Part shown: positions 24,949 through 34,963 of the stretch, one piece after another
How the letters are laid out: every line of letters starts with the position of its first letter
Numbering within the stretch: position 1 is the first letter of the stretch
Assembly (NCBI RefSeq): GCF_002813775.1
Contig: NZ_CP020370.1
Location: 2,195,501-2,259,500 of the forward strand
Origin: Candidatus Thiodictyon syntrophicum
Lineage (GTDB): Bacteria > Pseudomonadota > Gammaproteobacteria > Chromatiales > Chromatiaceae
Reading direction: 5' to 3'
DNA: 64,000 nt
Program-made: the position numbers and the translations under genes
The notes under the pieces: model-generated
Told to the model about the DNA's origin: nothing
Database searches by the model: none
Seen by the model: only the letters and a program-made list of their open reading frames with translations

Positions 24949-25745
24949 GCGGAACCGCCGCACCTACTGGGAGCGCCGCACCCCAGTGCGGCGAGCCCCT
25001 CAACCAGGATGCACCTGAAGGCGAAGCACCATCCCCCAGCGTCGCCACCCCCGCGCCCACTGGGAGCGCCGCACCCCAGTGCGGCGAGCCCGCCACCCAG
25101 GATGCCCCAGAAGGAGAAGCGCCACCCCCCGAAGGCCGCGGCTGGTACTCCCGCGGCTACCTCCCCCACTGCGACTCAAGCCATGTCATCCAGTCGCTCA
25201 GCTACCGCCTGGAGGACTCGCTACCCATCCAAGTCCTGGCACGCCTGCAGGCCGAGTCCCGACGCGAGATCGCAGACCCCAAGACCCGCGACATCGAACT
25301 TCGCAAACGAATCGAAGACTATCTCGACGCCGGCCACGGCTCCTGCATCCTGCGCGAACCGCAGATCGCTGCGTGCATCGTCGATACCTGGCTGCACTTC
25401 GACGGCAAGCGCTATCGCCTCCTGGAATGGGTCGCCATGCCCAATCACTGCCACGTCCTGATCGAACCTCTGCCGGGCGTCGCCCTGGCGACCATCGTGC
25501 TGTCCTGGAAGAACTACACGGCCCGGTTCATCAATCGGTTCTTGACCCGCACCGCGCAGAATGGCGCAGAAGTCCACGGACAGGTCTGGCAACGCGAGTA
25601 TTGGGACCGCTACATCCGCACCGACCAACACCTCGCCGCCGCACGTCATTACATCCGGATGAACCCGGTCAAGGCGGGCCTGGTCAAGACGCCGGAGGAA
25701 TGGCCCTGGGGGAGCGCTGGAATGGGTGTAAAGAGCGATTCCTGA
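24945..25745 (+). CDS. REP-associated tyrosine transposase (RAYT)
   Basis: The Y1_Tnp-type transposase core is clear. GWYSRGYLPHCD opens it, MPNHCHVLI at residues 165-173 gives the two metal-binding histidines H168 and H170, and VWQREYWDRYIR at 213-224 holds the candidate catalytic tyrosines Y219 and Y223. The only upstream in-frame start is the GTG at 24945, which overlaps the stop of the previous gene. Translation from there runs through two REP copies, producing repeated PTGSAAPQCGEP peptides before the catalytic domain. RAYTs act on single-stranded REP palindromes. Here REPs lie inside the gene, in an array just after it and again at 31621. Confidence 0.85.
   Translation: MSGTAAPTGSAAPQCGEPLNQDAPEGEAPSPSVATPAPTGSAAPQCGEPATQDAPEGEAPPPEGRGWYSRGYLPHCDSSHVIQSLSYRLEDSLPIQVLARLQAESRREIADPKTRDIELRKRIEDYLDAGHGSCILREPQIAACIVDTWLHFDGKRYRLLEWVAMPNHCHVLIEPLPGVALATIVLSWKNYTARFINRFLTRTAQNGAEVHGQVWQREYWDRYIRTDQHLAAARHYIRMNPVKAGLVKTPEEWPWGSAGMGVKSDS
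24968..25090 (+). repeat. Two REP palindromes inside the RAYT 5' region
   Basis: TGGGAGCGCCGCACCCCAGT followed by GCGGCGAGCC occurs identically at 24968-24997 and 25061-25090. The inner GCCGCACCCCAGTGCGGC folds into a hairpin. Both copies are read in the transposase frame. Confidence 0.9.
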
Positions 25746-25757
25746 AGGCGCCGCGAC

Positions 25758-26007
25758 TGGGAGCGCCGCACCCCAGTGCGGCGCAGCCTATCGACAGGAC
25801 GCGGCGCCGCGGTCGCTTGCGAGGCTCGCCGCACTGGGGTGCGGCGCTCCCAGTGCGGCGCGGCCTATCAGCAGCACGCGGCGCCGCGGTCGCTTGCGAG
25901 GCTTCGCCGCACTGGGGTGCGGCGCTCCCAGTGCGGCGCGGCCTATCAACAGGACGCGGCGCCGCGGTCGCTTGCGAGGCTCGCCGCACTGGGGTGCGGC
26001 GCTCCCG
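25758..26007. repeat. REP array with three tandem units of 77-78 bp
   Basis: A forward REP at 25758 is followed by tandem units starting at 25801, 25878 and 25956. Each opens GCGGCGCCGCGGTCGCTTGC and contains the inverted REP CGCCGCACTGGGGTGCGGCG. The units differ at only a few positions. The array separates the RAYT from the trypco-trypsin-MoxR operon. It has no spacer diversity, so it is not a CRISPR. Confidence 0.9.
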
Positions 26008-26116
26008 GTGGCGTGCCGCGTGGCACCGATATTGAGGGCGCCGCCGATCCGTCGCCTCCTGCATGGTTTATGCTATCGCCCTGACACCGCATCGAGACAC
26101 AACCCCGGAGCACCCC

Positions 26117-26437
26117 ATGGCACTGCGCGAGATCACAATCAACGGCCAGACGATCCTGGTCGAGGTGGCCGACCTGAAGGTCGAAGGCCAGTCGGCCGAC
26201 AACCGCCGCGAGCCCACCGCGGCCAGCGCGGAGAGTGGCGATATGACGGATCGCATCGACCAACTCCTGAAAGCCCTCACCACCCCGGTCCAGGCCGCCT
26301 GCCAGGCCGCCGGTGCCGCCGAGTGGTCGCTGCGGATCAACATCGGCTTCGGGGGCAAGGCCGCGCTCCCCTTCATCGCCTCCGGCGAGGCCAATGCCGC
26401 GGTCAGGGTCACCGCCAAATGGAAGCCGGCGGCCTGA
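26117..26437 (+). CDS. Trypsin-co-occurring (CU044_2847-like) protein
   Basis: The 106-residue protein begins ALREITINGQTILVEV and ends in a short beta-rich domain, WSLRINIGFGGKAALPFIAS..NAAVRVTAKWKP. This pattern, an acidic linker with a C-terminal strand ending in a conserved Trp, is that of the small trypsin-co-occurring domain found beside trypsin-like proteases in bacterial conflict operons. GGAG lies before the ATG at 26117. The protease gene follows after 4 bases. It may regulate or be processed by that protease; this is inference. Confidence 0.65.
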   Translation: MALREITINGQTILVEVADLKVEGQSADNRREPTAASAESGDMTDRIDQLLKALTTPVQAACQAAGAAEWSLRINIGFGGKAALPFIASGEANAAVRVTAKWKPAA

Positions 26438-26441
26438 GCCG

Positions 26442-27848
26442 ATGGCCCTCGCCGACCTCATCGTCAGCCTCTGGGGCGATCAGGCGGCGTCCCGGTTTCT
26501 GTGCTCCGGCGTGCATGTCGCGCCGGGTCATATCCTGACCGTCGCCCATGCCTTCGAAGACTTGGCGCCCGACGGCCAGACCTTTGTCTGTCAGTTGCCC
26601 GGCCAGCACGGCGCCAAGGCCGCAACCCTCTTGGCTCGTCACACGACGCTCGACGCCGCCATCTTCAAGTTGACGAAGCCCATCGGCGACCTGCGCCTGC
26701 CCCTGCCCGATGCCATCGGCGCCCAGGAGGGCCGCCGGCCCTGGTTCCATGCCATCGACCCCGACACCCATGATGTGGTGAGCCTGGACCACGGTTGCAT
26801 CGGCGACTATGACGGACAGCACTGCGAGTATGTCGTTGCGCCGCAGACCGCCCACGGCTACAGCGGCGGCCTGCTGGCGGTGGGTGAGCAGCCGCTCGGC
26901 CTGCTCAACTGCCGGATCGAGAACGAGCCCATCGCCCGTGCCATCGCGCTCGCGCAGTTGCGGCCCTGGATCGCCTTCCATATCGACCGCCCCCAGGGCC
27001 CCGACGACCAGGCGGGCCCGGACTACGAGGCCCTGGCCGCCCTCCTCGGGCTGCGCGCCCTGCAACTGCTCGCCAACCCCGGCACCGCGGACCTGCGCCG
27101 CCTGGGCGGCTTTCCCCGGCGGGCCGGCGAACTCGTCGGCTGCCCCCCGCGCGACTGCTTTGAAACCCTGGTCCCCGACCTCCACCAGGCCACGCAAGAC
27201 TGTCTCGACGCCTGGCGGACCCTGGGGGTCCCGGTCCCGCGCAACTTCAAGGCCGACTGCCACGCCCTGCTCGGGGAACTGCTCAAGGGTGCCGTGGACC
27301 GTCAGGGCCGCACGCCGGGCGAACTGGCGGAGTTGGCCGCCGCTACCCCGGATCGCATGTTCGTCGCCTGCCGGACCCTCGGCGCCGCGGCCACCGTGTA
27401 TTGCTCCATCACCGACATCCCCTTGCGGCTGGCCGAGCCCAAGGGCGCCCTGGACCTGCACGGCGGTTCGGTCATCGACCTCACCGACCTGGCCCAAGGC
27501 GTCGGCCCCGATGCCGAGCGGGACGCCTTCGACGCCGTCTGGCTATCCTACAAGGGCACGCCGGTGCCGGTGGACTTCGGCAACGGGGAGCAGCGCCTGC
27601 CCTATCTCAAGAACCTCATGAGCCACATCGATATGAAGCGCAGACTCTACCGGGACGACCCCCGGTTCCTGGTGGCCCGGGGGCCGCGCGAGTGGTTGCA
27701 CGGCGTCGGCCTGGCCAGCGCCGGCGAGCGGCTGCGCATCGGTCTCGTCATCCACGCCGCGGGCAGCGACTATGCCTACCTCGCGGTCGAGGAGGACCTG
27801 CTGATCAACCTGGCTTGCGAGTATCTCCAACTCCTGGAGCGGCCCTGA
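26442..27848 (+). CDS. Trypsin-like serine protease with C-terminal conflict-system module
   Basis: The first 200 or so residues are a trypsin-fold protease with a complete triad: H36 in TVAHAFED, D71 in HTTLDAAIF and S141 in GYSGG. The remaining 260 residues hold a helical segment (GPDYEALAALLGLRALQLL, resembling effector-associated domains) and a C-terminal alpha/beta region that I cannot name with certainty; it recalls the modules fused to proteases in vWA-MoxR-type systems. There is no signal peptide, so it acts in the cytoplasm. The stop overlaps the MoxR start (TGATG), which points to coupled translation. The protease is likely the effector or transducer of the operon. Confidence 0.8.
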   Translation: MALADLIVSLWGDQAASRFLCSGVHVAPGHILTVAHAFEDLAPDGQTFVCQLPGQHGAKAATLLARHTTLDAAIFKLTKPIGDLRLPLPDAIGAQEGRRPWFHAIDPDTHDVVSLDHGCIGDYDGQHCEYVVAPQTAHGYSGGLLAVGEQPLGLLNCRIENEPIARAIALAQLRPWIAFHIDRPQGPDDQAGPDYEALAALLGLRALQLLANPGTADLRRLGGFPRRAGELVGCPPRDCFETLVPDLHQATQDCLDAWRTLGVPVPRNFKADCHALLGELLKGAVDRQGRTPGELAELAAATPDRMFVACRTLGAAATVYCSITDIPLRLAEPKGALDLHGGSVIDLTDLAQGVGPDAERDAFDAVWLSYKGTPVPVDFGNGEQRLPYLKNLMSHIDMKRRLYRDDPRFLVARGPREWLHGVGLASAGERLRIGLVIHAAGSDYAYLAVEEDLLINLACEYLQLLERP

Positions 27849-28774
27849 TGCCCATCCCCGACTACCCCATCGATCGGGACCTGGACCTGGACCCCTGCGG
27901 CACCTGGCCGCTGTCGGTCCACCGCTTCGACCGCGACACGGCGGCGGCCCTGCGCGCGGCGGAGGCGGCCGGGCGGCCCCTGCTGCTGCGCGGTGTCCCC
28001 GGCACGGGCAAGAGCCAGACTGCCCGCGCCGCCGCGGCGGCGACCGGGCGGCTCTTCGTCCCGGTGGTGATCGACGGGCGCAGCGAGGCGGCCGACCTGC
28101 AATGGCATTACGACGCCGTCGGGCGCCTGTCCGACGCCCATGCCCCCGGCGCCCAGGCGCGCGACGCCGCCCATTATCTGAGCCCCGGCCCCCTCTGGTG
28201 GGCCTTCGATTGGGCCGGCGCGCACCGCCAGTGGGACCTGCGCCGCCAGGGCGAGGCCCCCGTGCTGCCCCCAGGCTGGACGCCGGGACTTGGCGCGGTG
28301 CTCCTCATCGACGAGATCGACAAGGCCGACCCGGACCTGCCCAACGCCTTCCTGGAGGTCCTGGGCAACCAGGGCTTCAGCCTCCCCTTCCTGGGTCAGT
28401 GCGTCGTGCGCGGCCCGGTCGCGCCGCTCGTGGTCATCACCACCAATGAGGAGCGCGAACTGCCCCCGGCCTTCCTGCGCCGCTGCCTGGTGCATATCCT
28501 CAAGGCCCCCGCGGACCTGCCGGACATGGGCCGGCGCCACCTGGAGCGGCGGGGTCTCACCGGTTACCCGCGGGTCCTGGCCGAGGCCGCGCGCCTCCTG
28601 GACGGGGATCGCGCCCGCGCCCGCGAGCAGAAGACCTATGCCCCCGGCCTGGCGGAGTATCTGGATCTGGTGATCGCCGTCGCCACCCTGGGGGCCTCGG
28701 AGGACGAGCAGTGGGCGCTCCTGGAGCAGACCGCCGGCTTCGTCCTCGACAAGGCTGCGCTCCTGCCCGACTGA
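27848..28774 (+). CDS. MoxR-like AAA+ ATPase
   Basis: The 308-residue ATPase has Walker A GVPGTGKS at residues 49-56, Walker B AVLLIDEIDKAD at 150-161, the VVITTNEERELPPAFLRRC sensor and arginine-finger segment, and the extra strand insert typical of MoxR-type enzymes. MoxR ATPases usually act with a vWA-domain partner to remodel a substrate; the next gene, 6 bases on, encodes a protein with a vWA-like domain. Overlap with the protease stop and tight spacing indicate one operon. Confidence 0.88.
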   Translation: MPIPDYPIDRDLDLDPCGTWPLSVHRFDRDTAAALRAAEAAGRPLLLRGVPGTGKSQTARAAAAATGRLFVPVVIDGRSEAADLQWHYDAVGRLSDAHAPGAQARDAAHYLSPGPLWWAFDWAGAHRQWDLRRQGEAPVLPPGWTPGLGAVLLIDEIDKADPDLPNAFLEVLGNQGFSLPFLGQCVVRGPVAPLVVITTNEERELPPAFLRRCLVHILKAPADLPDMGRRHLERRGLTGYPRVLAEAARLLDGDRARAREQKTYAPGLAEYLDLVIAVATLGASEDEQWALLEQTAGFVLDKAALLPD

Positions 28775-28780
28775 GCCCGG

Positions 28781-31603
28781 GTGGACGCCTCAAGCCTCAG
28801 GTCCCGGGCCGCCGTCGGCCGTGCCGACCTGCTGCGCATCCTGGCCGCCCTGCCGCCGCACCAGTGGCCCGCCGCGGCGCGCGGCCTGGGGTTCTCCCCG
28901 GTGCCGGAACCGCCGCGAGCGCCCCGGCCCGCGCCCGGTGCGCCCGCTGACCCCGGGGCGGGGGGCGCCCCGCGGGGTGGGCCCGAACCCTACCAACCCG
29001 CGGACCTTCCGGACCTGCCCTTCTGGTGCATCGCCGCCGACGAGACCCAGGCGCCGGACCCCGGGGCCGCGGACGCCTTAGCCCCGCTGGTGCAGGCCGC
29101 GCCCTGGGACGCGCTCCCCCTGAGCGATCCCGCGTGCCCAAGACCAGCGCAGCCGCAACTGGTGCCGCGCCCCCGCCAGGGGCGCTTCCTGCGCCGCCAC
29201 CTGGCGACCGCGCGCCCCGGCACCGGCCTGGACCTGGAGCGCCTGTGCCGCGACCTGGCCGCGCTGCGGCTGCCGCCGCACCTGCCGCGCCGCCCCTGCC
29301 CCCGCTGGCCGGCGCGGGTCGATCTGGTGCTGGATCTGACCCTGTCGCTGCGGCCCTATTGGGACGACTTCTGGCAGCTTCAGGACGGACTGCGGCGTCT
29401 CCTGGGCGGCCGTCTGCACCTCTGGCACAGCCGCGGCGGCGATCCCCGGGACCTGGTGTCCGCCCGGGACGGGCGCCCCGGCGGGCCGCCGCCAGGGGCA
29501 GGCGCCCTCGTGGTCCTCAGCGATGCCGGACTTTATAGCCCCGGCAGCGGGCGTCACCGCCGCTGGCAGGACCTGGGCCGCCGCCGGCCGGCCGCACCGG
29601 GGGCCGGCGCCCTGCTCATCGCCCCGGTGCCGCCGCGCCTCGCCGCCCCCGGCCTGGTCCCCGGGTTCCGGCTGGTCCCCTGGGACCGCGGGGCGCCCCT
29701 GCACCCCCTGCGCCCGGGCGCGGCGCCCGGGTCCGCGGCGCCGTCGGCCCCGGACCCGGCGGCCGAGCGCGCGACCGCGGCCCTGCTCGCCGCCCTCGCC
29801 GCGGCCTCGCGTGTCGAGCCCGCGCTCCTGCGCGCCCTGCGCCTGGGCCTGCGCGACCTGGGGACCGACGTCGGCAGTGAATACGCGGTCTGGAACCACC
29901 CCCAGGTCCGCGCCAACCTGCTCGCCTGCGCCCTCGCAGCCGAACATCGCGCCGCGGCGGCGGACGACTTCGGGCGACTCCCGGACGCGGTGAGGCCCCG
30001 GATCATCGCCCTGCGCCGCGCCTACAACCGTCACCAGTCCCCTCTGATCCAGGCTGAGGAGGCCCTCGCCGACGGGCCCTTGGCCCCGCCCGCCGACCTG
30101 GCCGCCGCCCGGAACCTGGTCTGGCGCCTGGCCGCCACCCTGGAGCGTGGGTCCGACGCCGTCCGCGGCGGCGAGTTGGCCGGCTATGTGGTCCACCTGG
30201 CCGCGCGCCGCCCCGAACTCCTGGACCAGAATCGCGAACTGGCCGCCGCCTGGGTCCTGGCCCGGCGCGAGGACCTGCGCCGCGGTACCCTGCACGAATT
30301 TCCCCGCGGCCTGGACCTCGACACCCTGGGCCGCCTCCTGGCGGAGCGGGGCGCGTCCCCGCCCGCCGTCCTCGGCCAGCTCGGGGATGCGCTCGGCCTG
30401 TTTCCGGCCGGGCCGTCCCAGCCTGCCTGTCCCTTGGCAGAGTTCGCCGCGGGCGCCGCCGACTGGCAGGTCGAGACCCTGATCGGCGGGCAGACCGGGT
30501 CCCCCCGGGTGCTGCGCCTGGGCGAATCCCTGCCCCTGGACCCCGCAACCCGCTACCGACTCACCATCGGGCGCCGTCGGCTGGAGCTGGCGTCCGTGCG
30601 CCGCCCGGCCTGGGCCGCCGGTCTGGGGCGCGACCGCGCCGGGCTCTTCGCGGAACTGGCGGACGGCCGGCGGCAGACGTTGGAGCGCCCCGGCTGGGCG
30701 TTGCGCCACGGCATCGACCAGGCCGGCTGGTGGGCCGAGTTCGCGGTCGGCCCCGTGGTCCAGCGGATGCGCTGGGTGCCGCCCGGGGAGTTCTTGATGG
30801 GGTCGCCCGCGGACGAGCCGGAGCGCTTCGGAACAGGCGACTGGGCGGAGACTCAGCACCCGGTGGTCCTCAGCCAGGGCTACTGGCTGGCGGATACCGC
30901 CTGCACCCAGGCCCTCTGGGAGGCGGTGCTGGGGGAGAACCCTAGCCAATTCAAAGGGGCGGAGCGACCGGTCGAGCAGGTCAGTTGGGACGACGTGACA
31001 GGGCGCTTCCTGCCCGCGCTGAACGCCCGGGTCCCGGGTCTGGAGGCGGTCTTGCCGACCGAGGCGCAATGGGAGTGTGCCTGCCGGGCCGGGACCCGGA
31101 CCCCGTTCAGCTTCGGGTCGAACATCACCACGGATCAGGTCAACTATGACGGCAACTACCCCTACGCGGGGGGCGCTAAAGGGGAGTATCGAAACCAGAC
31201 GGTCGAGGTCAAGGCCCTGCCGGCGAATGACTGGGGCCTGTATCAGCTGCACGGCAACGTCTGGGAGTGGTGCGCCGACTGGGTTGGCGATTATCCTGGT
31301 GAGGCCGTGGTCGACCCACCGGGGCCGCCTGAGGGCCGCGAGCGCGTGCTGCGTGGCGGCAGTTGGATCAACCACGCCAGGTACTGCCGGTCGGCGGCCC
31401 GTCGCGGCTTCGAGCCGGCCTACCGCAGCGTGTACTTCGGCTTGCGGCTGTCCCGAGGGTCTTCCCCCAGGCCGGCAGGAGGAGGCGTGGGCGTGGCGGG
31501 CGTGGTTGCCGGGGGCAGAGCCCCGGCAGCCGCGCCTGCCGCGCCCGCGCCGGGGGTGCGCGGTGTCTTCAAGAGCTTCGTGGACCGCTTGCTCAAGCGC
31601 TGA
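28781..31603 (+). CDS. DGR target protein 1: vWA-like domain plus variable FGE-sulfatase domain
   Basis: The 940-residue protein starts at a GTG 6 bases after moxR. An N-terminal helical stretch (ADLLRILAALPPHQW) leads to a vWA-like domain from about residue 180 (VDLVLDLTLSLRPYW, then ALVVLSDAG), with an imperfect metal-binding motif. A long helical middle follows, and then an FGE-sulfatase/C-type-lectin-fold domain at about 659-893 (PPGEFLMGSPADEPERF, LPTEAQWECACRAGT, HGNVWEWCADWVG, RVLRGGSW). Residues 851-893 are the retroelement variable region. A Gly/Ala/Pro-rich tail ends in FKSFVDRLLKR. By analogy with other diversified FGE proteins it should bind a changing ligand and signal through the MoxR and protease; that is inference. 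Confidence 0.85.
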   Translation: MDASSLRSRAAVGRADLLRILAALPPHQWPAAARGLGFSPVPEPPRAPRPAPGAPADPGAGGAPRGGPEPYQPADLPDLPFWCIAADETQAPDPGAADALAPLVQAAPWDALPLSDPACPRPAQPQLVPRPRQGRFLRRHLATARPGTGLDLERLCRDLAALRLPPHLPRRPCPRWPARVDLVLDLTLSLRPYWDDFWQLQDGLRRLLGGRLHLWHSRGGDPRDLVSARDGRPGGPPPGAGALVVLSDAGLYSPGSGRHRRWQDLGRRRPAAPGAGALLIAPVPPRLAAPGLVPGFRLVPWDRGAPLHPLRPGAAPGSAAPSAPDPAAERATAALLAALAAASRVEPALLRALRLGLRDLGTDVGSEYAVWNHPQVRANLLACALAAEHRAAAADDFGRLPDAVRPRIIALRRAYNRHQSPLIQAEEALADGPLAPPADLAAARNLVWRLAATLERGSDAVRGGELAGYVVHLAARRPELLDQNRELAAAWVLARREDLRRGTLHEFPRGLDLDTLGRLLAERGASPPAVLGQLGDALGLFPAGPSQPACPLAEFAAGAADWQVETLIGGQTGSPRVLRLGESLPLDPATRYRLTIGRRRLELASVRRPAWAAGLGRDRAGLFAELADGRRQTLERPGWALRHGIDQAGWWAEFAVGPVVQRMRWVPPGEFLMGSPADEPERFGTGDWAETQHPVVLSQGYWLADTACTQALWEAVLGENPSQFKGAERPVEQVSWDDVTGRFLPALNARVPGLEAVLPTEAQWECACRAGTRTPFSFGSNITTDQVNYDGNYPYAGGAKGEYRNQTVEVKALPANDWGLYQLHGNVWEWCADWVGDYPGEAVVDPPGPPEGRERVLRGGSWINHARYCRSAARRGFEPAYRSVYFGLRLSRGSSPRPAGGGVGVAGVVAGGRAPAAAPAAPAPGVRGVFKSFVDRLLKR
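31332..31457 (+). repeat. DGR variable region VR1
   Basis: These 126 bp align without gaps to the template at 33585-33710 with 13 differences, every one at a template adenine (A to G, T or C). They encode the last 43 residues of the FGE-sulfatase domain. Template asparagines become Y, A, R, F, Y, S and Y in the region WINHARYCRSAARRG to VYFGL. Confidence 0.95.
31505..31530 (+). promoter_or_regulatory. Hairpin downstream of VR1
   Basis: GTTGCCGGGG and CCCCGGCAGC can pair as a 10-bp stem (one G-T wobble) around a 6-base loop, 48 bp after VR1 and still within the coding sequence. The same structure follows VR2 at the same distance. Hairpins just 3' of variable regions promote retrohoming in the Bordetella phage element. 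Confidence 0.55.
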
Positions 31604-31620
31604 AACCCGCGGGCCGCACT

Positions 31621-31715
31621 GGGGCCGCCGCACCCCAGTGCGGCGCGGCCCATCAGCCGCGGCAAGGCCCGCTGCACGGCGCCGCACTCGCCGCACTGGG
31701 GTGCGGCGCTCCCAG
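31621..31715. repeat. REP pair between target gene 1 and the HRDC gene
   Basis: A forward copy (GCCGCACCCCAGTGCGGCG, 31627 onwards) and an inverted copy (CGCCGCACTGGGGTGCGGCG, near 31689-31708) of the RAYT-linked REP flank a short spacer. They form a long imperfect hairpin in the middle of the retroelement operon. Confidence 0.85.
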
Positions 31716-31751
31716 TATGCACAGACCGGCATCGGCAAGGTGACCCAACCA

Positions 31752-32264
31752 ATGAAACTCAAGTTCTTCACCATCCCCGTCGCGAGCCCCGAGGGCGCCG
31801 AGGCGGACCTGAACCGCTTCCTGGGCGCCCATCGCGTCTCCCAAATCGAGCGGCACTTCACCGCCGACGGCGCGGCGAGCTTCTGGGCGGTCTGCGTGAC
31901 CTGGGTCGAGGGCGCAGAGGGCTTGGCCGCATCTGCCCCGGACGCCGCGCGGCGCGGGCGCATCGACTACCGCGAGGTCCTGGAGGCCGACGAGTTCGCC
32001 CTCTACGACCGCTTGCGCACCCTGCGCAAGCAGTCGGCGGAGGCGGAGGGCCTGCCGCCCTTCGCCGTCTTCACCAACGAACAACTGGCCGACATGGTGC
32101 GTCGGCGCGTCAACACCCTGGCGGACCTGGCCCGGATCGACGGCATCGGCGAGGCGCGCCTGAGCCGCTACGGGGCCGCCTTCCTGGAGGTCCTGTGCGC
32201 CGGGGTGCCGCGGCTGGGTCCGCCCGCCGCCGCGCCGGCGGCCCCGGCACCGGCGACCGGCTGA
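31752..32264 (+). CDS. DGR accessory protein with HRDC domain
   Basis: The 170-residue protein has an N-terminal beta-rich part (MKLKFFTIPVASPEGAEADL, FWAVCVTWVEG) seen in helper proteins of diversity-generating retroelements. An HRDC domain follows at about 79-150 (FALYDRLRTLRKQSAEAE, PPFAVFTNEQLADMV, GIGEARLSRYG). HRDC domains bind nucleic acid; in retroelements that lack an Avd protein this helper probably supports template-primed reverse transcription. GGTG precedes the ATG by 9 bases, and the stop overlaps the reverse transcriptase start (TGATG). Confidence 0.88.
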   Translation: MKLKFFTIPVASPEGAEADLNRFLGAHRVSQIERHFTADGAASFWAVCVTWVEGAEGLAASAPDAARRGRIDYREVLEADEFALYDRLRTLRKQSAEAEGLPPFAVFTNEQLADMVRRRVNTLADLARIDGIGEARLSRYGAAFLEVLCAGVPRLGPPAAAPAAPAPATG

Positions 32265-33280
32265 TGCCGCGGCGCACCCGCGTCGAACTGGCGCAGATCG
32301 CCGCCTGGGACAATCTGGAGTGCGCCCTCTGGGCCGCCGCCCGCGGCAAGCATGGCCGCCCCGAGGTCGCGGCCTTCCTCGCCGCAGCCCCCGCCGCCCT
32401 GGCGCTGGTGCAGGCGGCCCTGGCCGCCGGGCGCCTGCCGGTGGGGAGCTTCCGGCGCTTCGCCATCCGCGACCCCAAGCCGCGGGTGATCCATGCCGCG
32501 CCCTTTCCCGATCGGGTCGCCCACCACGCCCTGGTGCGCCTGTTGGAGCCGCGCCTGGAACTGGCCCTGGTGCCGACCAGCTTCGCCTGTCGCCCGGGCC
32601 TGGGTGCGCAGGCGGCGATCCTGCACGCGCGCGAGTGCGCCCGCCGCTGGCCCTGGTATCTCAAGCTGGACGTCGAGCACTATTTTCCCAACATCCCCCA
32701 TGACCGCCTGCTGGCCCTCCTGGCGCGGCGCTTCAAGGGCTCGGTCCTGGGGCTCATCCGGCAGGTGCTCGCGACCCACCAGGCCGCCCCCGGGTGCGGG
32801 CTGCCGATCGGCGCCCTGACCTCCCAGCACTTTGCCAACCAGTACCTGGGCGAGGCCGACCGCTACGCCTTGGCGCGCCCCGAGTGCCGTGCCCATGCCC
32901 GCTATATGGACGACCTGATCCTGTGGTGTGACGGGCGGGCACAGGGCCGCGCCCTGCATGGCGCACTGAGCGCGTACCTGGGTGAGACGCTGGGCCTGCG
33001 TCTGAAGCCGCCCTGCCTGATGCCGTCGGCGGCTGGGCTCGGCTTCTGCGGCATGCGCATCTACCCGGGGACCATCAAGCTCGGCGCGCGGCGCCGTCGC
33101 GCCTGGTCCCAGGGCCGCCGCCGCTGGGAGGGGCGCTGGGAGCGCGGCGAGATCGGCGCGGCGCAGTTGCAGCGCGCCTATGACAGCCTCTGGTCGGCGA
33201 CCCTGCCGGCCGACAGCCGCAGCCTGCGCCGGGCGCAGCTCGTCCGGCGGCCGGCGCCGGACCCGGGCCCTGCGCCATGA
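32264..33280 (+). CDS. DGR reverse transcriptase
   Basis: The 338-residue protein has the reverse transcriptase palm motifs: LKLDVEHYFPNI with D136, GLPIGALTSQHFANQYLGEA at 179-198, and the catalytic YMDD at 214-217. The I-G-x-x-x-S-Q signature (IGALTSQ) replaces the usual QG motif and is the hallmark of diversity-generating retroelement enzymes, linked to adenine-specific misincorporation. There is no maturase or endonuclease domain, so it is not a group II intron protein. It directly follows the HRDC gene, and the template lies 305 bp downstream on the same strand. Confidence 0.95.
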   Translation: MPRRTRVELAQIAAWDNLECALWAAARGKHGRPEVAAFLAAAPAALALVQAALAAGRLPVGSFRRFAIRDPKPRVIHAAPFPDRVAHHALVRLLEPRLELALVPTSFACRPGLGAQAAILHARECARRWPWYLKLDVEHYFPNIPHDRLLALLARRFKGSVLGLIRQVLATHQAAPGCGLPIGALTSQHFANQYLGEADRYALARPECRAHARYMDDLILWCDGRAQGRALHGALSAYLGETLGLRLKPPCLMPSAAGLGFCGMRIYPGTIKLGARRRRAWSQGRRRWEGRWERGEIGAAQLQRAYDSLWSATLPADSRSLRRAQLVRRPAPDPGPAP

Positions 33281-33295
33281 GCGGGCCGCGCGCCC

Positions 33296-33512
33296 CCAAC
33301 CGGAGGTCGAGGCTTCAGCCGGCGGCGGCTTTGGATGGGCTGCGTTGCGCGGGTGCGGGTCCGGCTAACGGCCATGGCGCCCGCGCCACCCCGAAAGATG
33401 AAAGTTGCGGGCGCCATGGCCGTTCCCTCACCCCGCCCTCTCCCAGAGGGAGAGGGGGAATTGGAGCGCGCTCCCGGCGCGACTTTCACGGTAAAGCCTC
33501 GACCTCCGGTTG
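33296..33512. repeat. Nested inverted repeats between RT gene and template
   Basis: The outer pair is CCAACCGGAGGTCGAGGCTT (33296 onwards) against TAAAGCCTCGACCTCCGGTT (33492 onwards). The inner pair is AACGGCCATGGCGCCCGC (33367-33384) against its exact complement GCGGGCGCCATGGCCGTT (33407-33424), an 18-bp stem with a 22-base loop. The outer sequence also occurs at 39647 and 60293-60350, so it is a dispersed palindrome family. Confidence 0.85.
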
Positions 33513-33584
33513 GCGTGCTTGGGCCGGCCCCCGCTGTACCCTGGGTCCGGTTGGCGTTACTCTTGGCACGGTGTCGCGGCGTCA

Positions 33585-33710
33585 AGGGCCGCAAGCGCGT
33601 GCTGCGTGGCGGCAGTTGGATCAACCACGCCAGGAACTGCCGGTCGGCGAACCGTAACGGCAACGAGCCGGCCAACCGCAACGAGAACATCGGCTTGCGG
33701 CTGTCCCGAG
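33585..33710 (+). ncRNA. DGR template region TR
   Basis: This 126-bp template, from AGGGCCGCAAGCG to CTGTCCCGAG, is the non-coding donor for VR1 and VR2. In the reading frame of the targets it would encode WINHARNCRSANRNGNEPAN, with eight AAC codons, the codon that mutates to the widest residue set when adenines vary. It contains 27 adenines; VR1 differs at 13 of them and VR2 at 14, and no other base type differs. It lies on the same strand as, and downstream of, the reverse transcriptase. Confidence 0.95.
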
Positions 33711-33921
33711 CGCCTCCCCCGCGTGGCGGGGAAGCCCAGTCGCGGCACCCGTTCCCGTCCGGGAGATCCCGGCCGGGGCAAACAGGCAGGGCACCGGCGC
33801 GCTGGTAGGGCCAGACCCGAACGCCCGCCGGTGGCCCGCCCCAGGTCGGCACCGGCGCTCGCGGCGCAGGGCGCCTGACATCCGGTGGAGAGACTGGGTA
33901 AGTCATCGCTGCAACCGTTGC

Positions 33922-34028
33922 GTAGCCCGGATGGAGCGCAGCGGAATCCGGGGACGGCCTCGCGGATACTCGCGCAATCCGCGGGTTGCCGCGGGGACCT
34001 GGATTGCGCTGCGCTCCATCCAGGCTAC
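33922..34028. repeat. Palindromic repeat upstream of target gene 2
   Basis: GTAGCCCGGATGGAGCGCAG at 33922 pairs with CTGCGCTCCATCCAGGCTAC ending at 34028, around a 60-bp middle that is itself partly self-complementary (CCGCGG..CCGCGG). This is a common gammaproteobacterial dispersed palindrome. It ends 20 bp before the start of target gene 2 and so forms its upstream region. Confidence 0.8.
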
Positions 34029-34048
34029 GACCTTCGCGGAGGACTGCC

Positions 34049-34963
34049 ATGAACGCCTATGTCCGCCAACTCCCGCCCTGCTTTCCCGAACCCTGGGCGT
34101 CCGGCTGGGGGCAGGACCGCCGCGGGCTCTGGCAGTCGTTCAGCGTCAAGGGCGTGGTCCAGGTCTTGCGGTGGATTCCGCCCGGGGACTTTATGATGGG
34201 GTCGCCGGCGGACGAGCCGGAGCGCCTGACTTACGGCGATGAGACACGGCATCGGGTGGTCCTGACGCAGGGTTACTGGCTGGCGGACACCGCCTGCACC
34301 CAGGCCCTTTGGCAGGCGGTGCTGGGTGAGGACCCGAGCCGCTTCAAGGGTGCCGAGCGGCCGGTCGAGCGGGTCAGCTGGACGGACGTGGTGGAGCGTT
34401 TCCTCCCCGCACTGAACGCTTTGGTCCCGGGCCTGGAGGCGTCCTTGCCCACCGAGGCCCAGTGGGAGCTTGCCTGCCGCGCCGGGACCGACACGCCCTT
34501 CAGCTTCGGGTCCACCATCACCACCGACCTGGTCAACTACGACGGCAACTACCCATACGGCGACGGGGCCAAGGGCGAGTACCGGGCGCAGACGGTCGAG
34601 GTCAAGGCCCTGCCCGCCAGTGCCTGGGGCCTTTACCAGATGCACGGTAATGTCTGGGATTGGTGCGCGGACTGGCTCGGCGACTATCCTGCGGACGCCG
34701 TGGTCGATCCCCTGGGGCCGCCTGAGGGCCGCAAGCGCGTGCTGCGTGGCGGCAGTTGGCTCTACCACGCCGGGAACTGCCGGTCGGCGCTCCGTCTCGG
34801 CCGCGGGCCGGCCAGCCGCCACGGGAGCATCGGCTTGCGGCTGTCCCGAGGGTCTTCCCTCAGGCCGGCAGGAGGCGTGGGCGTGGCAGGCGTGGTTGCC
34901 GGGGGCAGAGCCCCGGCAACCGCGCCTGACGCGCCCGCGCCGGGCAGGCCGGCAGTCGCGTAG
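34049..34963 (+). CDS. DGR target protein 2: stand-alone variable FGE-sulfatase domain protein
   Basis: The 304-residue protein is almost entirely one FGE-sulfatase/C-type-lectin-fold domain (IPPGDFMMGSPADEPERL, LPTEAQWELACRAGTDTPF, HGNVWDWCADWLGDYP, RVLRGGSW). The variable region lies at residues 226-268. A Gly/Ala/Pro-rich tail close to that of target 1 follows (AGGVGVAGVVAGGRAP). It has no vWA part, signal peptide or membrane segment. GGAGG lies 7 bases before the ATG at 34049. Its likeness to the FGE part of target 1 over the whole length suggests duplication. It may be a soluble receptor serving the same system, which is inference. Confidence 0.88.
   Translation: MNAYVRQLPPCFPEPWASGWGQDRRGLWQSFSVKGVVQVLRWIPPGDFMMGSPADEPERLTYGDETRHRVVLTQGYWLADTACTQALWQAVLGEDPSRFKGAERPVERVSWTDVVERFLPALNALVPGLEASLPTEAQWELACRAGTDTPFSFGSTITTDLVNYDGNYPYGDGAKGEYRAQTVEVKALPASAWGLYQMHGNVWDWCADWLGDYPADAVVDPLGPPEGRKRVLRGGSWLYHAGNCRSALRLGRGPASRHGSIGLRLSRGSSLRPAGGVGVAGVVAGGRAPATAPDAPAPGRPAVA
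34725..34850 (+). repeat. DGR variable region VR2
   Basis: These 126 bp align without gaps to the template with 14 differences, all at template adenines. Only a few are shared with VR1, so the two regions were mutated independently. The template stretch with eight asparagine codons here reads WLYHAGNCRSALRLGRGPAS and then RHGSIGL. Confidence 0.95.
34895..34920 (+). promoter_or_regulatory. Hairpin downstream of VR2
   Basis: GTTGCCGGGG and CCCCGGCAAC form a perfect 10-bp stem around the loop GCAGAG, 45 bp past VR2. It matches the hairpin that follows VR1 at nearly the same distance. Confidence 0.6.

Follow-up and report, generated by a model that had tools for sequence, protein, structure and literature searches.

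A probably working diversity-generating retroelement in a putative MoxR/vWA-type conflict operon of Candidatus Thiodictyon syntrophicum

We analyzed a 64,000-nucleotide (nt) stretch of the genome of Candidatus Thiodictyon syntrophicum (contig NZ_CP020370.1, positions 2,195,501 to 2,259,500; hereafter the window), which lies within a 6.84-Mb contig of a 7.74-Mb genome. A plus-strand locus at window positions 26117-34963 encodes, in this order, Trypco1, a trypsin-fold protease, a MoxR ATPase, a first FGE target, an HRDC protein, and a reverse transcriptase (RT), followed by a template repeat (TR) and a second FGE target. On balance we judge that this locus is probably a working diversity-generating retroelement (DGR) in a MoxR/vWA-type conflict operon. 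We find in it a DGR-type RT, a TR and variable repeats (VRs) that differ adenine-specifically, an HRDC accessory protein, and VRs placed at the C-terminal end of an FGE/C-lectin fold.

All 13 core mismatches between the TR and VR1 fall at TR adenines (P = 1.3e-9, Fisher's test), as do all 14 between the TR and VR2 (P = 1.7e-10); the two P values include one boundary base. Pooled over both VRs, 27 of 27 core mismatches are at template adenines, and differences at other bases start only where the homology stops. An earlier interpretation made from the sequence alone (the sequence-only reading) had proposed a retroelement that diversifies an FGE protein beside MoxR, and these mismatches, together with the RT, HRDC, TR, and two VRs, bear it out. 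Twenty-six of the 27 TR adenines stand at codon positions one and two, and the number of possible proteins is ∼10^15 per target. The best match of the RT in the PDB is 8ub7 (phmmer E 6.7e-43), which we take to be the RT of the BPP-1 DGR, and the FGE domain of target 1 in an AlphaFold2 (AF2) model matches TvpA (2y3c) with a Foldseek E of 4.8e-13. Three related loci can be compared. L019 has the gene order of the window, an RT 73% identical to that of the window, and 28 of 28 TR/VR mismatches at A; L075 has 25 mismatches at A and three at C, two of these C at the 3′ boundary; and the TR/VR pair of L087 is eroded, with many mismatches at non-A bases.

The comparison with a sister species is proof of retrohoming in two Thiodictyon species since their split. 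The sister genome (G472) has the second half of the locus on contig C22 (L135), and the comparison covers one sister VR, VR2; HRDC-RT there is 93.1% identical to that of the window. The two TRs differ at four of 127 sites, none of them an adenine. At these diagnostic sites (44, 71, 101, and 111) both window VRs carry the base of the window TR, and the sister VR2 carries that of the sister TR. At all four sites each VR agrees with its own species' TR, from which it must therefore have been rewritten after the species split. The sister VR2 differs from the sister TR at 13 sites, all 13 at A, and the 25 sites that differ between the window and sister VR2 comprise 21 of the 27 adenine sites and the four mirrored sites, with none elsewhere; the body of the target 2 gene differs at 61 of 676 sites. 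A relic DGR that no longer works is conceivable from the repeats that lie between the RT and the TR and 5′ of target 2, which are absent from the sister locus. We think it very improbable, given an RT frame that is open with YMDD and VRs that match the TR of their own species at every diagnostic site with no stray change.

The hairpins that follow both VRs (see table) have 6-nt loops; a phage DGR consensus is a GC-rich hairpin after the VR with a 7- to 10-bp stem and a 4-nt GRNA loop (passages of PMC3240598). We treat the hairpins as weak evidence, because the best stems after nine VRs of L018, L019, L075, L085, and L087 are 3-7 bp long and because 95 of 1500 random 110-nt stretches of the window contain a stem of at least 8 bp.

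We then asked how constantly the diversified protein is linked to MoxR, with one profile of the N-terminal part of target 1 (A3) and a wider one (A5), in genome samples that were evenly drawn and that each count the own genome. A3 homologs occur in 26 of 210 genomes of the family, and A5 homologs in eight of 369 genomes of the class and 20 of 398 of the phylum; the own genome has four matches to the A5 vWA-like profile, and the A3 scan of IMG/VR returned no relative. We examined 26 family loci out of 40 A3 matches listed (the window, L016-L020, L050, and L073-L091, some of which share a genome). A neighborhood search had been suggested by the sequence-only reading; made around the target 1 N terminus, it found MoxR in all 26 family loci and in 17 of 18 wider loci (L094-L111, one being the own genome's 6.0-Mb copy), the single miss lying at a contig end. 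Of the 26 loci, 22 also contain an FGE match, which in some lies in a different open frame; of the four that have none, L016, L020, and L084 are contig ends and L091 is not. In the wider set, 16 of the 18 have an FGE match. The possibility that the protease-MoxR genes and the DGR targets are mere neighbors with no joint function, to which the repeat-bearing gap 5′ of HRDC and the mobile repeats elsewhere in the locus might be thought to point, is in light of this linkage extremely improbable, the more so as the upstream effector gene and MoxR overlap by 4 nt in seven of the 14 relatives in which both genes were called.

The N-terminal region of target 1 is probably a divergent vWA domain, judged from sequence profiles and a structural model. 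The sequence-only reading had the variable domain fused to a vWA-like protein: The FGE domain is indeed diversified and adjoins MoxR, but vWA is seen at the fold level only, a Pfam scan of the 940 residues matching FGE and no vWA. The commonest weak Pfam match of the N-terminal family is VWA_CoxE (three of 24 and six of 25 members in overlapping sets; best E 0.0026, below cut-off). A 39-member profile scored 69% against 14 PF05762 matches pooled from related genomes, not all of which pass the cut-off of that family, and both metal-site Asp are in register; controls with this profile gave 0.3% (reversed) and at most 0.7% (FGE and trypsin profiles). At each of the positions Asp 185 and Asp 248, 22 of 24 members have D. 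In a Foldseek search with the AF2 model of target 1 (pLDDT, the predicted local distance difference test score, 72.1; 24 alignment rows), NorQD chain 9qhe_G ranks sixth (E 0.042, probability 0.82), after five FGE-family matches. We take the NorD of this complex to be the vWA partner of a MoxR-family ATPase.

The 468-residue protein is by sequence and model a chymotrypsin-fold serine protease with a catalytic triad, and proteolysis is its predicted activity. Its model has 511 Foldseek PDB matches at E ≤ 0.001, with DegS and trypsin-type proteases on top; Pfam Trypsin_2 scores 18.5 bits, below its cut-off of 27.6. The triad H36-D71-S141, described as intact in the sequence-only reading, proved exact in its positions and is invariant in six of six homologs. 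Thus, of the domain and structure predictions proposed for the 468- and 940-residue proteins, the protease fold was recovered, and vWA fell below all Pfam cut-offs and has support at the fold level. A contig of an uncultured Thiodictyon (L015) encodes the window protease at 95% identity.

The gene directly 5′ of MoxR could be read in 22 of the 26 family loci (not in L050, L073, L076, and L088) and was classed by Pfam and sequence reading. Fourteen of the 22 are trypsin-type, among them those of the window and its five closest relatives; four are TIR, two calcineurin-like with TIR, one calcineurin-like with a nucleoside phosphorylase, and one has no class. Pfam Trypsin_2 matches 12 of the 22 at E ≤ 1. 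Trypco1 accompanies the window-type proteases (by Pfam in the window and L017-L020, by tblastn in L016), and Trypco2 is found at all six of the remaining trypsin loci that were checked for it (L078, L079, L080, L082, L084, and L090, out of eight that also comprise L086 and L089). In other families of the phylum we considered 20 loci, one of them without an N-terminal profile match; a simple gene caller called MoxR in 12 of 19. Eleven upstream genes were picked from these loci (L156 without a called MoxR), and ten were scanned: three are TIR, two calcineurin-like, one trypsin (below cut-off), two very weakly cyclase-like (E ∼0.1), and two have no assignment.

Among these effectors, we compared 24 non-window proteins over their last 150, 200, and 270 residues, in three groups that were chosen after the sequences had been seen: s1 (six TIR, two cyclase-like, one calcineurin-like, and one unassigned), s2 (nine trypsin-type and one unassigned), and s3 (four calcineurin-like). 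L087, L089, and L091 (other set) and L017 (window family) were left out. Group s1 scores 95.8%-99.1% with s2 (223 columns at 270 residues) and 96.7%-97.7% with s3, and s2 scores 28.1%-86.0% with s3; reversed profiles give 0.1%. By these sequence comparisons, a shared C-terminal domain of the non-window effectors is solid. Its presence on the window protease is possible, not certain, from profile scores of 76.7%-88.1% for the window protease family (five proteins) against s3, with reversed controls at 0.1%-1.2%.

VMAP-C was found by Pfam at E ≤ 1 in none of the 22 and none of the ten upstream proteins, and in 96 family genomes, including the own, there was no match over the cut-off and one, not in the own genome, below it. 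Membership in VMAP is ruled out on the grounds that VMAP-C was not found in the proteins scanned. No STAND family is among the Pfam matches listed for the upstream proteins. We tentatively raise the possibility of a distinct ternary MoxR-vWA class beyond VMAP and iSTAND, in which a constant, diversifying vWA-FGE sensor and MoxR would serve plug-in effectors that dock via one undescribed C-terminal adaptor domain. The effectors so plugged in might, with the same reserve, be trypsin, TIR, calcineurin-like, nucleosidase, and possibly nucleotide cyclase proteins.

A plausible reading of the sequence makes target 1 the sensor and the partner of MoxR. The FGE head would bind a variable ligand, and binding would alter the ATPase state of MoxR via the divergent vWA co-chaperone domain. 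MoxR may then act on the product encoded directly upstream, here the cytoplasmic trypsin-fold protease, which is accompanied by Trypco1 and may be held through a C-terminal adaptor domain, and would release or activate it. The outcome would probably be damage or death of the own cell upon contact with phage or non-kin. In relatives the same slot holds TIR, calcineurin-like, or nucleosidase effectors, which would make a constant diversified sensor with exchangeable output, and target 2, a free FGE domain, may be a co-receptor or decoy.

The published VMAP model (Kaur 2020, as restated in passages of Dore 2024, PMC10907252) orders the steps differently: Invasion is sensed by the peptidase protein, which MoxR activates and which then cleaves the vWA-FGE protein; the FGE part freed in this way is a binding effector or decoy. 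The intact triad of the window protease suits such cleavage. However, the effector gene swaps between loci and the target N terminus is constant, a pattern more in keeping with an output than with a shared sensor; and since the order of steps cannot be read from sequence, we rate the Kaur-type order as rather unlikely. Because the diversified partner is the constant one and the swapped partner is the effector, the comparison favors, but does not decide for, the order sensor to MoxR to effector of Doré. As to the trigger, phage defense and kin discrimination are both compatible with this sensor reading. In a version that overlaps with it, the targets would serve kin recognition or adhesion in aggregates and the operon would kill or exclude non-kin instead of sensing phage. 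Kin recognition is raised in passages of Dore 2024 (PMC10907252), where, of the clade 5 DGR RTs that belong to described species, 82% are from bacteria that are multicellular or form aggregates. A surface role is less likely, however, as no signal peptide or membrane segment was noticed in targets 1 and 2 (by eye, no predictor), and overall we regard this version as unlikely.

Several observations weigh against the reading of the locus as a DGR-diversified vWA sensor joined to an effector. No member of the N-terminal family reaches the Pfam vWA cut-off, the DxS/TxS motif is retained in three of 24 members, a PDB sequence-profile search with A5 yielded no vWA, and two vWA subsets score just 1.4% and 15.8% with the 39-member profile, so that the pooled-profile and Foldseek values are to be taken as suggestive. 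The protease model has a pLDDT <50 from residue 303 onward, and the window protease family scores 5.1%-19.1% with s1, at most 0.4% with s2, and 17.4%-21.7% with all 24 proteins pooled; an earlier C-terminal test with 290-residue tails and fewer sequences was negative for it. An RT match is present in four of the 26 family loci (the window, L019, L075, and L087), and no RT match was found in the fetched stretch at the other 22, some of which are contig ends (the sister RT lies on another contig); many such operons may lack diversification in cis. Finally, two palindromic repeats part target 1 from HRDC-RT.

The coordinates of all features are collected in the table. The sequence-only reading had described a five-gene run, tightly packed with TGATG overlaps at several joints. 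The order of Trypco1, protease, MoxR, and FGE target is present; the supposed fifth gene, a fused HRDC-RT, is ruled out, this part being two overlapping genes. Packing is tight, with TGATG at only two joints, where the MoxR ATG overlaps the protease stop and the RT ATG overlaps the HRDC stop. Gaps of 4 nt (Trypco1/protease) and 6 nt (MoxR/target 1) separate the other upstream genes, and 148 nt, containing the palindromic repeats, lie between target 1 and HRDC. The best NCBIfam match of the MoxR protein is the MadB ATPase (71.2 bits, below the cut-off of 475), and its Walker motifs were noted by eye. PADLOC matches in the locus are confined to the RT, HRDC, and AAA-type genes, Trypco1, the protease, and both targets having none. 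An Rfam scan of the window gave no match at the gathering cut-off. A promoter and terminator scan found two terminator-like sites (shuffle mean 2.4) and one promoter-like site, on the minus strand (shuffle mean 0.3).

Table. Features of the locus, with positions in the window
Feature	Position	Strand	Evidence or remark
Trypco1 (trypsin-co-occurring domain 1), 106 residues	26117..26437	+	Pfam PF19493, 47.6 bits (cut-off 24.6), E 2.6e-12
Trypsin-fold protease, 468 residues; N-terminal protease domain and C-terminal region (possibly the shared adaptor domain)	26442..27848	+	Foldseek, triad
MoxR-family AAA+ ATPase, 308 residues	27848..28774	+	Pfam AAA_5, E 5.4e-11
DGR target 1, 940 residues, GTG start	28781..31603	+	Pfam FGE-sulfatase, E 3.3e-34
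Target 1 regions: probable divergent vWA-like, residues ∼165-305; helical and beta linker; C-terminal FGE/C-lectin domain, residues 662-890
VR1	31332..31457	+	core mismatches with TR all at TR adenines
GC-rich hairpin 3′ of VR1	31507..31528	+	8-bp stem, loop GCAGAG
HRDC-domain DGR accessory protein, 170 residues	31752..32264	+	Pfam HRDC, E 6e-19
DGR reverse transcriptase, 338 residues	32264..33280	+	Pfam RVT_1, E 3.1e-12; YMDD by eye
Template repeat (TR), 27 adenines	33585..33710	+
DGR target 2, short FGE-only protein, 304 residues	34049..34963	+	Pfam FGE-sulfatase, E 3.7e-36
VR2	34725..34850	+	core mismatches with TR all at TR adenines
GC-rich hairpin 3′ of VR2	34894..34921	+	11-bp stem, loop GCAGAG

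Repeats are frequent in and around the locus. A palindromic 27-mer has eight copies in the window at up to two mismatches (shuffle mean 0), in 24966-26009 and 31618-31716, two of the eight lying between target 1 and HRDC, and a REP-associated tyrosine transposase is encoded at 25170-25745. Between the RT and the TR (∼33361-33512) is a ∼150-bp repeat with a perfect 18-bp hairpin, where the sister has other sequence; we rule this hairpin out as a DGR element, as it belongs to a repeat of which dozens of copies are listed for Thiodictyon genomes. The stretch 5′ of target 2 (∼33842-34047) is partly repeated in relatives and absent from the sister locus.

Other DGR-like loci are found in the same genome, which has 68 FGE-sulfatase (PF03781) matches, all over the cut-off. 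In a DGR with HRDC and two FGE targets on contig C1 (2963001-2983000; L038), adenines of the presumed TR (coding strand) account for 14 of 16 mismatches with one target and 22 of 24 with the other; in a DGR with an nSTAND1-FGE target on the same contig (3488001-3508000; L039) they account for 12 of 12. A Ser/Thr kinase-FGE gene 640 kb off (L037:7696-9780; C1 ∼2.87 Mb) ends in a VR-like stretch that shares 81% identity with the window TR; of its 23 mismatches, 14 are at A and nine are not. It also has a VR-type flank and an 8-bp hairpin with a similar loop, and may be an old target of rewriting in trans. Among the relatives, L079:12128-12511 and L080:12160-12543 are HRDC genes with FGE targets and no RT match within the 18-kb stretch, and may be orphan accessory genes or belong to targets served in trans.

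If the sensor reading is true, the locus would join a prediversified receptor to an output of the suicide type, as a bacterial counterpart of adaptive immunity; if the distinct-class reading is true, its sensor would be adaptive and its outputs exchangeable, the shared adaptor domain connecting various effectors to a single kind of sensor. With a likely fold assigned to the "unknown" N-terminal extension, the partnership with MoxR becomes readable. The concept of a DGR-diversified MoxR conflict system is not new: As the sequence-only reading stated, trypsin/MoxR/vWA conflict systems and the diversification of their sensors had already been described, in passages of Kaur 2020 (PMC7159879) and Dore 2024 (PMC10907252). 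The former give ∼80% of cyanobacterial and gammaproteobacterial VMAP systems as DGR-linked, mostly with vWA fused to FGS; the latter propose the antigen-sensor reading and show VR variation in aggregates. A search for literature joining "Thiodictyon" and "diversity-generating" found none in the library searched, and the titles and parts of abstracts on DGR with MoxR (2021 on) or DGR with Chromatiaceae name neither the adaptor domain nor the vWA assignment. The window locus may already be in the supplementary tables of Doré 2024.

HRDC is a known DGR accessory (passages of PMC4891356 and PMC10053308). The Treponema denticola DGR with TvpA resembles the window in its FGE-type variable protein (PDB 2y3c) and in an HRDC accessory gene that overlaps the RT gene; the HRDC passages of PMC4891356 mention neither MoxR nor a protease. 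Closer in architecture are the ternary DGR systems of VMAP type, which share MoxR, a vWA-FGS fusion, and a peptidase protein with Trypco (passages of PMC7159879), but the window lacks VMAP-C in the proteins scanned and its vWA is too divergent for Pfam. The iSTAND ternary systems, in passages of the same source, likewise occur in proteobacteria, have FGS as the commonest vWA-fused domain, and have a third component with TIR, trypsin, and similar N termini. The loci in passages of Doré 2024 (PMC10907252) are also like the window. In DGR 9 of Thiohalocapsa PB-PSB1 the target adjoins MoxR and a trypsin-like peptidase, without canonical VMAP and with an N-terminal extension in the place of vWA; clade 5A DGR loci have MoxR directly upstream, mostly one long and one short CLec-only target, and often Trypco and TIR or peptidase genes near. 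They differ in that the extension is there called unknown or without predicted domains, and our analysis points to a divergent vWA and to a shared C-terminal effector-adaptor domain. The new elements here are thus the proposed vWA assignment, the effector-adaptor domain, and the between-species proof of retrohoming.

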